From Mycoplasmataceae bacterium (lineage in GTDB: Bacteria > Bacillota_I > Bacilli_A > Mycoplasmatales > Mycoplasmoidaceae), in assembly GCA_031265955.1 (NCBI GenBank), contig JAISBY010000010.1, forward strand, positions 310,001 through 374,000: a stretch of 64,000 nucleotides of DNA, read 5' to 3'. This document shows positions 21,858 through 60,176 of this stretch, piece by piece. A model generated the notes under the pieces. It had not been told where the DNA came from. It worked only from the letters and a program-made list of their open reading frames with translations, and ran no database searches. How positions within the stretch are numbered: the first letter of the stretch is position 1; the number at the start of each line of letters is the position of its first letter. Position numbers and translations under genes: made by a program.

Positions 21858-22760
21858 TTAAATCCTCCATTTAAAACATTTTGAAGTCAACCCTATAAAC
21901 CCAATCATAAAAAACGGTGGCATAAATCAGCATAGTCAAATATCATAAGTATGCAAAGAAACAATCGATGTTTTGTTATTAATTGATATTCAATAATCGT
22001 GAAACGGATTGAATAAACCACCATTTACTACGCCGTTAATATCATGATAATTATTTCAAGACATTTGTAGCAACCCAGTTACATACCTAAATGGTGAAAT
22101 ATAGGAAACAATTTTTAAAGCCCTTTGCGAATCTAAGATAAAAAACGGAATTATTTGCCCTGAGAAAATAAGGCTTAAAATGTAAAATAAAGATCCAACT
22201 ATTTGGGTGGTAACATTAGTTTTGAAAATTAATGCAATTGAAATTCCAATAATTAAATATGTTAGATAGGAAATTACTAGCGCCAACAAGAACCCCCCCC
22301 AATTGACAGAAGTCTCCTGATAACTGCCGAATACAATTGTAAGATGGTTAGAATTAAAAATAATGACTCAAATAAAATCTCAAGTTGATGTCAAAAACAA
22401 TATCATAAAATAAAAAATAATATTAGTAAGTATGTAGTTATATTTGCTGATTGTAGATATTCCAATTTTTTCAGATAATGTTGAATTACGAAAGCTTACG
22501 ATTGTGGCAGGCATAATATTAATGGCGATTGGAAGCGAAGCAATTAAAATACCGCTCATAAAATTGTTTCGTACAAGAATGGTCGAGTCATTACCCATAA
22601 AATTGTTTACTGATACACTAATTAGCATAAAAAAATAAATGAAAATGGGAGTGAACACAACCGTATATAGCGGTGGAAATTTTAAACGTATTCAATTTTT
22701 GAAAATAAGCTTAAATAATTCGTTTATATGTTTTGTTTTTTTGCAATTGGTGATTCGCAT
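21858..22760 (-). CDS. ABC-2 type permease with a G8 tract
   Basis: 300 residues with six hydrophobic segments, among them FMLISVSVNNFMG, LALVISYLTYLIIGISIALI and IVGSLFYILSLIFSGQIIPF, followed by SYISPFRYVTGLLQMS, a typical ABC-2 ending region. The coding strand has eight Gs at 22300-22293 (VNWGGFLLA), so loss or gain of one G would truncate the protein before its last membrane segments. It starts 14 nt after the alaS stop on the same strand and leads into its ATPase gene. No Shine-Dalgarno sequence was seen. Confidence 0.8.
22293..22300. repeat. C8 tract inside the ABC permease
   Basis: Eight Cs on the plus strand (G8 in the coding direction). Homopolymeric G/C runs of this length are rare in such AT-rich DNA and slip readily. 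The frame is ON here. Confidence 0.9.
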
Positions 22761-25539: not shown

Positions 25540-26271
25540 TTATTTTGTTTCGGGTGCAGTTGGTCAATTTTCTCAATTGGGATAAACATTTTTTAATGTA
25601 TTCCCTTCATCACCGCCCACAGTTCCGGTGACATCAAGACATGGAAACGGACTCTCGTCTATAGGACGAGAATCTACAATGACATTAAGATTTTTTGCAG
25701 AGCTATCAGCTGTTCCAATTTGAAAACCAGGAGAACCAGTCTTTGCGTAATCCCCCCCCAATTCAAAAGGTGTATCAATTAGCGCGTTACCAGCGGCGCA
25801 AACGGAAAAATAGTTGTCGAATCAAGCTTTATATTGATGGTTAACTTTTTCGTTATCGGTAATAGTAGCAGAAGCATCAAATTTAATTTTGTGGCTTTGA
25901 ACTTCAGTGTGTATTTTAATTTGGCTAAAGGTTCATTGTTCTGCTACAGTCAGTAATCCCATAACGAGAACTTGTGACAAACACACCAAATAAGACGCTC
26001 GATCAATATTCATGCCATCATTAATTACTTTCAACATTTTTGAATTCGTTACATCGGTAGATTCTTCCAAACCTAAATCTCTTGAGGATGTATCTTTAGC
26101 GTTATTTGCGATATCGCCACCTTCAGCTAAGACTGCTTTGAGAAAACCTAAGTCTTGAACTTCTACAGTATGACCTTCTACGGAACATGAAGTGATTGAA
26201 ATTGCACTAGCGACACCGACGGCAGATAGACTAACAATCGGTAAAACCATTTTTAATAACATTTTTTTCAT
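25540..26271 (-). CDS. Lipoprotein with G8 tract
   Basis: 243 residues from ATG 26271 behind an AAGGAGAGG site. The signal peptide (MKKMLLKMVLPIVSLSAVGV and on) ends in SITSC at about residue 29, a lipobox. The mature part is acidic, without repeats, and not recognised. Eight Gs on the coding strand (25759-25752) encode ELGGDY near residue 171; a slip would cut off the last 70 residues. UGA Trp codons occur at several points. Promoter: TTGTCA-16-TATAAT (26306-26333, minus strand). Confidence 0.82.
25752..25759. repeat. C8 tract inside a lipoprotein gene
   Basis: Eight Cs on the plus strand, G8 in the coding sense, in the lipoprotein gene 25540-26271. The present length keeps the frame open to the natural stop. 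Confidence 0.9.
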
Positions 26272-27401: not shown

Positions 27402-27467
27402 TCTAGAATGTCTTTGTGGTTTAACGGCATAGCGAAGAATCCCCCCCCATGGCGCCAATTAAAATTA

Positions 27468-27473
27468 TATAAT
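27468..27473 (+). promoter_or_regulatory. -10 box of the leader ORF
   Basis: TATAAT with exactly 7 nt to the ATG at 27481, so a transcript would start at or next to this ATG. It lies within the C8/G9 inverted repeat. Confidence 0.65.
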
Positions 27474-27492
27474 CTAGTCTATGCAATCAAAT

Positions 27493-27501
27493 GGGGGGGG
27501 G
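27493..27501. repeat. G9 tract in the leader ORF
   Basis: Nine Gs forming codons 5-7 of the leader ORF. It is the longest G run on the plus strand of the window and the candidate slip site of the switch. Confidence 0.92.
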
Positions 27502-27546
27502 ATTAGGTGTTATAGTGCTAACGGCACTAATTTAATCTTCTTTACC

Positions 27547-27586
27547 AAAAACAATATGTCTACCGTTGTAGACATATTGTTTTTTT
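27547..27586 (+). terminator. Perfect 17-bp terminator hairpin before a lipoprotein gene
   Basis: A5-CAATATGTCTAC (27547-27563) pairs without mismatch with GTAGACATATTG-T5 (27568-27584) around the loop CGTT, and the T-run extends to 27586. It is the strongest terminator in the window. It lies between the leader promoter and the lipoprotein start at 27618, not after a long gene, which fits an attenuator. It could also end read-through from degV. Confidence 0.92.
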
Positions 27587-27617
27587 GCTATTTACATTAA
27601 TTCAAAGGGTAATAGAG

Positions 27618-28088
27618 ATGAAAAGATTAAATTTAATTAAAACAATTGGCGTTGTTGGTACGCTGGGAGTATCTAGTGCGGCACTTGGTATTGGCTTAAC
27701 AAGTTGTAGTATAAAAACAATATCATATGATTTTGGCACGCTTCACCATGATGAAACAATGGATGTTATTATTTCGGGTGATGAATTAACTTACAATGGC
27801 GAATATACAACAATTCTGACGACAAAAGATGGCAAAACACCTGCAGGACTACCGGACGGCGTTGACTATTATTATGATGTCTCACAGAAAGTTGGTATCT
27901 ATTCACAAGATACGGGTAAGAGAACGATTATTGGAATAATTTTTAAATCTTTGCCTCCAACAAGCAATAAACAGACAGTTACAGCGTGAGCCACAAAAGA
28001 CTTTTCTCCCATGATGTCAAACTACTCCCAATATAGCTGAACCAAAATTAAGATTAAAGCAACTTGAAATTGAACTCAACCGGAATAA
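27618..28088 (+). CDS. Small lipoprotein downstream of the attenuator-like leader
   Basis: 156 residues from ATG 27618 (AAAGGG about 10 nt upstream; the in-frame start at 27585 lies within the terminator and is rejected). Signal peptide MKRLNLIKTIGVVGTLGVSS continues to GLTSC with Cys near 31, a lipobox. The mature domain of 125 residues is mostly beta-like and not recognised. A weak own promoter is possible: TAGACA (27569-27574), 18 nt, TACATT (27593-27598). A second surface protein starts 2 nt after the stop. Confidence 0.8.
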
Positions 28089-28090
28089 CT

Positions 28091-28897
28091 ATGTCAGCTA
28101 ATATAAATAATAAATTTCCTGCCGCTACTAAAATTGCAAAAAAACACCGTCGAAATATTTCACTGTTATTTGGTTCGGGAGTACTTGCCGCGGGAGGAGT
28201 TGGTGTTGGAATAACTTATGCTGTGATGAATAAAAAACCAGCAGATGAAATAATAGATCAACAATTCTCGTTAAGCGATCTTAAAAATTGAAATTATGGT
28301 AAATATACAACGAAACATAAAGCAAAAGATTTTTCTAACAAATCATCAGATGATCAAGAAATAATCAAATATTTTCATAAGTATTATCATTCAAAAGATT
28401 TGTTAAATACCATAGTAAGCTATTTTAATTATTTTACGGAATACACCAACGTTACTGTTGATGGCGAATCCGTACCATTAATGTCAACTTTAACTAATAA
28501 CACTCATATGCACGTTTTGTACATTCGTGAAAGTAGCGATGATGGCTTCCATTTGTTTCTGGTCTATAACTTTAGATTTAATAAATCATTTGTTTTTGAT
28601 GAAATCCCCATTGACACCCATACCGTAGTAGAACTTACCATTCATAATAATAGTAAATTTGATGCGATTATCAATAAAGCTTATTACATCCCAAACTCTG
28701 ATTTTGATATGCAGCAATACCAAGGTAATAATCTCCAACTTACTATAAGTCCAAAGCCTAATGACGGATTTATGATTGAAACGGTAATCGGTGAAACTAC
28801 TAGTGATATTGTTTTATACGACGAAGTAACTAAGACGAATTGGTCAGCGCTTCCAATCGTTGGGTTTGATGATGTCAAATTGCCCACTGAAAATTAG
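28091..28897 (+). CDS. Membrane-anchored surface protein, unknown
   Basis: 268 residues starting 2 nt after the lipoprotein stop, so translationally coupled. A basic N-terminus of about 25 residues leads to one membrane helix (SLLFGSGVLAAGGVGVGITY); no Cys follows, so it is an anchored protein and not a lipoprotein. The rest, about 215 residues, is hydrophilic and beta-rich, with UGA Trp at 28289 and 28823 region. Not recognised. It would share the switch proposed for the lipoprotein. Confidence 0.72.
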
Positions 28898-59345: not shown

Positions 59346-60176
59346 TTATTGTCCCATTGACCACTCCAATCCTGCATGGGTTAAAAAACCTGCTAATGTC
59401 AAAACCATTAACAAAGTCACTATCAACAAAGAAAATTTAGAAACCAATATTTTTTTACGAATCTGTTTAAAAGCGTCTGCTCACATAAATTGGCATTTTA
59501 TAAAACAAAAACAAACTATCATACACATCCCCAAGCTCACAAATCCATCGATGAAATAATGAACTTTTGAAACAATACGGCCAATAAAAGTGCTAATACC
59601 TAAGAAGCAAAGGATTATTAAAGCCATATAGATCAGAATATTAATTTGTCTTTCATATTTTTCTTTTTTTATCTTAGCTAAGACAATTATGACAATAAAA
59701 ATTTGAATATTTAGGTTATGAAAAGAAGGGAGCTCTCCGAAATTACTAAAATAATAAGTTTTGTTTATAAAAATATTCATATTATCTGGTGGAGTGTAAT
59801 AAACTGGGAATAAAAGAAAAATTACAAAACTAATCATGTGCATTAGAATAAAAGTTTTGGCCCAATAAGTAAAATACTTTCGCCCCAATAATACATAAAT
59901 TAATACTGAAAAAATAATCATAATCAAATCATACAATGAGGCCACATAATTAAAGAAGCCTAACGCTGGTGTGCCCCATTTAATAATGGCTTGATCAATC
60001 GGAAGATTAAGATTATCAAAAACTCATCAACCATGATTTACTAAAATAGTTTGAAGGGCGCACCCCCCCCCGTAGAAAATAAGGTGAGCAAGAAGCACTA
60101 AAAAAAGTCAAATGAGAATATAAAGCAAGTGGTTAAGAAAACGGTAATTCTTTTTGACAAAAGATTCTTGATTCAT
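59346..60176 (-). CDS. PAP2-like membrane phosphatase with G9 tract
   Basis: 276 residues, about six membrane segments. Two motifs of the PAP2 superfamily are visible: PSFH in GELPSFHNLN and R-x5-H-x3-D in GRIVSKVHYFID, close to the PAP2_3 (inositol-phosphotransferase-like) branch; the first motif was not located. Nine Gs of the coding strand (60071-60063) encode FYGGGCALQ near residue 36, in frame here; one slip would cut the protein to a short peptide. TATAAA is 6 nt before the ATG. It may dephosphorylate a lipid or transfer a head group. Confidence 0.78.
60063..60071. repeat. C9 tract inside the PAP2-like gene
   Basis: Nine Cs on the plus strand, G9 in the coding sense, near codon 36. Present length keeps the reading frame open. 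Confidence 0.92.

Follow-up and report, generated by a model that had tools for sequence, protein, structure and literature searches.

How can a homopolymeric tract that lies in neither the promoter spacer nor the coding sequence of a lipoprotein gene control the expression of that gene? This question is raised by a locus in the window, the stretch of 64,000 nucleotides analysed here, where a 39-codon leader ORF carrying nine consecutive G residues runs through an intrinsic terminator just before a lipoprotein gene. The earlier note on this locus had proposed that tract length sets lipoprotein expression through translation-coupled antitermination. The pattern of reading frames across a family of related leaders supports this proposal, in the absence of expression data.

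Anatomy of the leader

The features of the locus are as follows:

27441..27448, strand not given: C8 tract, 5' of the −10 box and over the −35 position (from the sequence)
27468..27473, plus strand: −10 box TATAAT of the leader promoter
27481..27600, plus strand: leader ORF of 39 codons, ATG at 27481, TAA at 27598-27600
27493..27501, plus strand: G9 slippage tract, codons 5-7 of the leader ORF (from the sequence)
27493..27546, plus strand: hairpin 1, in which the G tract and ATTA pair with TAATCTTCTTT; apical stem-loop at 27513-27529
27504..27506, plus strand: off-frame TAG met with G10 (sequence and frame analysis)
27533..27535, plus strand: off-frame TAA met with G8, ending 11 nt 5' of the terminator stem
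27536..27543, plus strand: pyrimidine tract TCTTCTTT, pairing partner of the G tract
27547..27586, plus strand: intrinsic terminator, a 17-bp stem with a 4-nt loop (27547-27584) and a T-run to 27586
27604..27609, plus strand: AAAGGG ribosome-binding site of the lipoprotein gene (from the sequence)
27618..28088, plus strand: lipoprotein of 156 aa with lipobox LTSCS, TGA read as Trp (from the translation)
28091..28897, plus strand: next gene, a protein with a single membrane anchor, 2 nt after the lipoprotein gene

The positions that the earlier note had assigned to TATAAT, the leader ATG, the G9 at codons 5-7, the end of the ORF and the lipoprotein ATG at 27618 all held, as did the 17-bp terminator and the stops met with eight and ten Gs. 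It had missed that the G tract forms the 5' side of a second hairpin, that the leader belongs to a multicopy family and that an experimental precedent exists.

The G tract starts 19 nt past the −10 box. It does not lie between the −35 and −10 elements and therefore does not qualify as a promoter-spacer homopolymer; it is also outside the regulated coding sequence, as the leader ends at 27600 and the lipoprotein begins at 27618, and so does not qualify as a coding-frameshift switch. The first stops after the tract fall at +96, +31 and +2 in the three frames. RNA folding gives hairpin 1 an apical stem of AGTGC/GCACT and a folding energy of −19.1 kcal/mol (z −3.7); for the entire leader the value is −41.9 kcal/mol, compared with −19.8 for shuffled sequences (z = −7.8). 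The terminator was identified by sequence and structure, termination itself being inferred. From the spacing to the −10 box, the leader ORF is probably leaderless, with its ATG at or adjoining the expected transcription start.

C8-C11 tracts close 5' of the −10 box were observed in the window (27441-27448), at L003 and at the G037 loci L176, L177, L183, L185, L186, L188, L191 and L193; L003 and about half of the G037 leaders have a C tract near the 5' side of TATAAT, and in some G037 copies it sits between a TTGACT/TTGTCA-like hexamer and TATAAT. The function of the window C8 tract can only be inferred; it might be a second slippage site tuning promoter strength, and it is conceivable that the C8-C11 tracts in general add slippage control at the promoter spacer to the switch in the leader, the two acting in series.

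The table-11 ORF at 27585-27989 is truncated at a TGA, and the full lipoprotein requires TGA to encode Trp; the open frame of the leader itself is free of TGA. The 2-nt gap suggests that the next gene is likely co-transcribed with it. Searches of Pfam gave no match for either protein.

The leader family and its distribution

A search of its own genome with 263 bp of window DNA returned about 10 relatives, eight of which align across the entire leader. RNAalifold on the eight copies predicted two hairpins with compensatory changes in both, affecting the apical stem of hairpin 1 and the pairs of the terminator stem, and this was confirmed with 37 copies. Two covariance models were built, R1 from the leaders with G tracts (G-type) and R2 from a subtype with (GA)n repeats (GA-type) that had appeared among the R1 hits. 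The earlier note had suggested looking for the same layout in related genomes; the models found it at more than 100 sites in 7 of the 36 genomes of the window's genus (its own and six others), with 4 to 40 analysed copies per genome. The further copies given by R2 all fell in the same 7 genomes as R1, and neither model found the family in any of 59 genomes from other genera of the taxonomic family. The window's genome carries both subtypes, the GA-type copies being L142 and L284-L287. Against Rfam 15 there was no match at the gathering score, the sole hit being a below-threshold microRNA on the terminator.

The copies have a layout in common: a −10 box, a start codon positioned where transcription is expected to begin, a purine repeat, a hairpin, a terminator and then a gene. 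This anatomy and its conservation are shown. The repeat is G7-11 in the G-type paralogues, and GA-type copies carry (GA)n tracts 8-42 nt long, so that the repeat unit has changed from G to GA with the layout unchanged. In 53 of the 55 G-type copies an ATG lies 5-7 nt past the −10 match, which is TATAAT in nearly all of them; GA-type promoters are less uniform. Because the start codon is only 5-7 nt past the −10 box, the ORF probably begins at or beside the transcription start, which remains an inference. The repeat lies within the leader ORF: nearly all copies have a start codon 5' of it whose frame leads into the tract, even where the codons separating the two differ, as in ATGCAATCA, ATGATCAAC, ATGAACACC, ATGAAAATT and ATGGAAAAC, and likewise in the varied start regions ATGCAATCAAATAG, ATGCAACTTAGTAG, ATGCAATTTCATAG, ATGATCAACACAAGAG, ATGAACACCCACAAGAG, ATGAAAATTATCGTGAGAG and ATGGAAAACTTCAGAG.

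Some 20-60 nt past the terminator, usually after an AAGGA-like site (such a motif is found 5' of nearly all controlled genes), comes the gene. The products of nearly all controlled genes are lipoproteins or carry a single N-terminal membrane anchor, and many leaders adjoin paralogous lipoprotein genes with similar 5' ends. One GA-type leader in the window's genome (L287, C11:7720) lies 5' of a zinc-dependent alcohol dehydrogenase-like gene, which does not encode a surface protein. In G037, G038 and G044 many leader copies are no more than a few hundred bases from the end of a contig; the leader repeat family may therefore itself break assemblies.

Reading frames after the tract

According to the earlier note, its proposal would be refuted if relatives did not conserve the ORF frame across the hairpin. 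The frames were examined in the 104 copies with a clear tract by locating the first TAA or TAG in each of the three post-tract frames; a copy was scored as fitting when exactly one frame reached the end of the 5' arm of the terminator and the other two stopped before the hairpin. The one-open, two-closed pattern, which like the start codon is conserved across 7 genomes, is shown in 95 of the 104 copies, compared to 44.7 expected from dinucleotide shuffles and 28.4 from structure-preserving shuffles, which retain the pairing of both stems and of the tract with its partners. The proposal passed this test. Both subtypes fit: 51 of 55 G-type copies (21.5 expected from dinucleotide and 19.1 from structure-preserving shuffles) and 44 of 49 GA-type copies (22.7 and 8.8, respectively). 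Among copies less than 70% identical, 19 of 21 fit against 9.1 and 5.9 expected (binomial P ~1e-5 relative to the dinucleotide rate); below 60% identity, 5 of 6 fit with 2.6 expected, too few copies for significance. Because the copies are related, they amount to far fewer than 104 independent cases.

The exceptions comprise seven copies with two open frames and two with none. A copy without a start codon, L224 (ACG), likewise lacks an open frame. The long frame often stops in the terminator loop or runs beyond it. The early stops vary with subfamily: G000 and G037 have TTAA/TTAG directly past the tract, G044 has a CTAG farther downstream, and many GA types have TAA/TAG bordering the tract. 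The pattern therefore does not reflect a single inherited stop. Post-tract indels are mostly not multiples of three, which indicates that the openness of the frame is kept rather than the peptide. As a coding test, a preference for indels in multiples of three was uninformative, since phase is set by the tract in any case, and no such bias appeared in the counts.

Tract length and current phase

Tracts remain long and nearly pure across the family, and their diversity in length is shown: length differs in 50 of 55 pairs that are at least 90% identical outside the tract, the pairs being paralogues and not one locus across cells. Judged by assembled tract lengths, 26 copies are currently open and 76 closed, so that about a quarter are open, near the one in three expected from random phase. 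In the window's genome the open copies are the window copy (G9), L003 (G8) and L007 (G9), with 12 closed. Individual phases are uncertain because MAG-grade assemblies may contain errors in G tracts; the post-tract frame pattern is independent of assembled tract lengths.

Poly-G is strikingly common in this genome, with 104 overlapping G8 matches in 980,658 bases. At L011 (C2:78235) and L010 (C2:63608), G8-G9 lies between a TTGAC-type −35 hexamer and the TATAAT of other genes, an arrangement that, as inferred from sequence, could represent classical promoter-spacer slippage switches. At L009, L015, L023, L044, L245 and L252, G8-G10 lies within the signal-peptide codons of lipoprotein genes, and these loci may by the same kind of inference be classical coding-frame switches. 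The (GA)n leader at C5:17105 (L286) and the signal-peptide-region G9 at C5:17790 (L245) are about 700 bp apart on the same strand. G8 also occurs in housekeeping-looking coding sequence, namely the alanyl-tRNA synthetase region of the window (25752-25759, minus strand), and within an AAA protease-like gene on C9 (L017); two further minus-strand G runs in the window, C9 at 60063-60071 and C8 at 22293-22300, are in long open frames outside the leader family.

Proposed mechanism

The 95 of 104 frame pattern and the 50 of 55 tract differences support a switch based on translation-coupled antitermination. We propose that the leader is a phase-variable transcription attenuator in which the frame of the leader tract sets readthrough of the terminator. 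We consider this reading likely (probability about 0.82); promoter, transcription start and leaderless initiation are inferred, and there are no transcript, ribosome or expression data.

In this model RNA polymerase would start at or beside the leader ATG, as inferred from the −10 spacing, and a ribosome would initiate on the apparently leaderless ORF and cross the G9 or (GA)n tract. Slipped-strand mispairing during replication would alter tract length and hence frame, an inference in keeping with the variation among near-identical copies. With the frame open (G9 in the window), the ribosome would have entered or passed the terminator by the time the polymerase reaches the T-run; the 5' arm would be unable to pair and transcription would continue, after which the lipoprotein would be translated from its own ribosome-binding site. 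With the frame closed (G8 or G10), the ribosome would come off before the terminator, the hairpin would form and transcription would end. Copies would switch independently, so that a population may hold many combinations of surface proteins. That an open-frame ribosome keeps the terminator from forming is inferred and rests on data from Streptococcus gallolyticus pil1 and E. coli. Frame control alone leaves the need for hairpin 1 unexplained, though its structure is conserved; speculatively, and as a guess from the trp and pyrBI leaders, it may be a pause hairpin by which ribosome and polymerase stay synchronized.

The model depends on coupling, and uncoupled transcription of the Bacillus kind would weaken it. 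Coupled ribosome-polymerase expressomes are known in Mycoplasma pneumoniae (review PMC7858274), and a NusG homologue is present in the window's genome. No Rho RNA-binding domain was found in this 89%-complete genome, and Rho-dependent polarity was rejected on that ground.

One of two corrections to the earlier note is that the switch may be graded and not binary. This is plausible because the distance from an early stop to the terminator is only 0-10 nt for some off frames, among them one off frame in many GA-type copies. An E. coli terminator was almost fully repressed a few nt past a stop codon and fully active beyond ~30 nt (PMC4824070). By analogy with pil1 and E. coli, frames ending 0-10 nt before the hairpin would be expected to allow partial or full readthrough. 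The same distances would place many G-type closed frames in the off state and the window G8 frame (11 nt) in an intermediate one, and the GA-type frame abutting the terminator could be partly on in many copies.

A bolder reading would see the leader as a genus-specific cassette of promoter, apparently leaderless ORF, hairpin-forming tract and terminator whose spread has placed it before tens of surface genes in each genome. Such a cassette would have three levels, namely full readthrough, an intermediate level with a stop just before the terminator, and off with a stop far upstream; tract length would in addition tune the pause hairpin, and poly-C promoter-spacer or signal-peptide tracts would add serial switches. 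Taken with all its parts, this reading is in our judgement possible but less likely than not.

Alternative explanations

The main rival in the earlier note was that a promoter past the hairpin (TAGACA-18-TACATT) drives the lipoprotein gene, in which case the leader terminator would merely end an upstream transcript and tract length would be irrelevant. In its favor, 27569-27598 matches the promoter consensus at 9 of 12 positions, and ACATTA recurs past the terminator in 4 of 9 other G-type copies of the same genome. Against it, the region contains two promoter-like sites compared to 1.5 in shuffled sequences; the −35 hexamer lies within the 3' arm of the terminator and is unique to the window copy; and the element is not conserved among the G-type copies of the genome, TACATT being absent from half of them (L003, L005, L008, L135 and L137). 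Nor does it explain the conserved start codon and the one-open-frame pattern. Furthermore, L004, L005, L006 and L007 have no upstream transcript in need of the leader terminator. At L004 and L006 the leader is 3' of a tRNA gene with its own terminator, and at L005 and L007 the upstream gene is divergent; the terminator therefore belongs to the leader, and its assignment to the end of an upstream gene is excluded at these four loci. We regard the own-promoter explanation as unlikely.

An RNA-structure switch without translation, in which tract length would alter the stability or register of hairpin 1 and thereby affect pausing or the adjacent terminator, is also improbable. Two observations favor it: in nearly all copies the tract supplies the 5' side of hairpin 1, and compensatory changes occur in the apical stem. 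However, hairpin 1 and the terminator abut, share no bases and offer no mutually exclusive antiterminator, a start codon in frame into the tract is not predicted, and the one-open, two-closed pattern exceeds structure-preserving randomization (95 versus 28.4). A trp-style antiterminator was rejected as well, since none appears in the consensus folds of 8 and 37 copies, which contain two abutting, non-competing hairpins.

That the leaders are duplication leftovers, copied along with lipoprotein genes and with frame and tract now irrelevant, is very unlikely: many copies do lie beside paralogous lipoprotein genes with similar 5' ends, but the layout outlasts the sequence (G versus GA, start regions, stop codons, unrelated downstream proteins), stem pairs covary, tracts are long and nearly pure, and the decayed copy L224 lost start and frame together.

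Comparison with known systems

The earlier note had known of no case joining slippage to leader attenuation; in this second point it needs correction, as the pil1 and pil3 loci of S. gallolyticus show phase-variable attenuation through GCAGA repeats (Danne et al. 2014, PMC3894217). At pil1, transcription goes up when the leader is translated as far as a stop inside the terminator or 4 bp short of it, but not when the stop lies 28 nt or more upstream, and mutations of the leader ATG and the terminator behave as predicted (PMC3894217). The window family resembles these loci in having a slippage-prone repeat in a leader ORF 5' of an intrinsic terminator, in that frame determines ribosome arrival at the terminator, in the off stop lying well upstream and in the control of a surface structure. 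It differs in the repeat (G7-11 or (GA)n instead of GCAGA pentamers), which is part of a covarying hairpin; in the start codon at the inferred transcription start where the pil leaders have a ribosome-binding site; and in number, with 4 to 40 analysed copies per genome compared to two loci in S. gallolyticus. At pil1, moreover, two of the three frames are on. No sequence relation between the two has been shown, and they are probably convergent.

In E. coli pyrBI the leader ORF also overlaps the terminator and a closely coupled ribosome blocks the hairpin; pyrBI, however, responds to UTP via polymerase pausing rather than to tract length and has no slippage repeat. The trp and his attenuators likewise combine a leader ORF with a terminator, and hairpin 1 may resemble their pause hairpin, whereas neither a mutually exclusive antiterminator nor a regulatory run of codons was seen in the leader family. 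Mycoplasma homopolymers in promoter spacers or coding sequences, such as those of vlp, switch surface lipoproteins by slippage, and both classical forms seem to be present in the window's genome too. The window tract, in contrast, is 3' of the −10 box, outside the lipoprotein coding sequence and in a separate leader ORF. In Neisseria, slippage in the siaD poly-C tract causes a frameshift that leads to transcription termination; that termination is Rho-dependent and within the structural gene, unlike the intrinsic terminator and dedicated leader found here.

Implications

Mechanisms of this kind have been on record since 2014, from two pilus loci in a single species. New here are the mono- and dinucleotide tracts, the apparently leaderless ORF, the covarying hairpin that contains the tract and the many copies per genome; a search of the open literature, subscription journals excluded, found no report of slippage-switched leader attenuation in mollicutes or with mono- or dinucleotide tracts. 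If the proposed mechanism is correct, slippage-controlled attenuation would be more than an oddity of a single species, S. gallolyticus. The on or off state would be readable from tract length modulo 3 in any metagenome, and surface variation in uncultured bacteria could therefore be tracked by sequence alone. With tens of loci per genome, these leaders would also provide a natural assay by which ribosome-polymerase coupling in mollicutes can be tested. For the organisms themselves, the leader family would be a main switch for large repertoires of surface proteins in a group of wall-less bacteria that apparently lack Rho.
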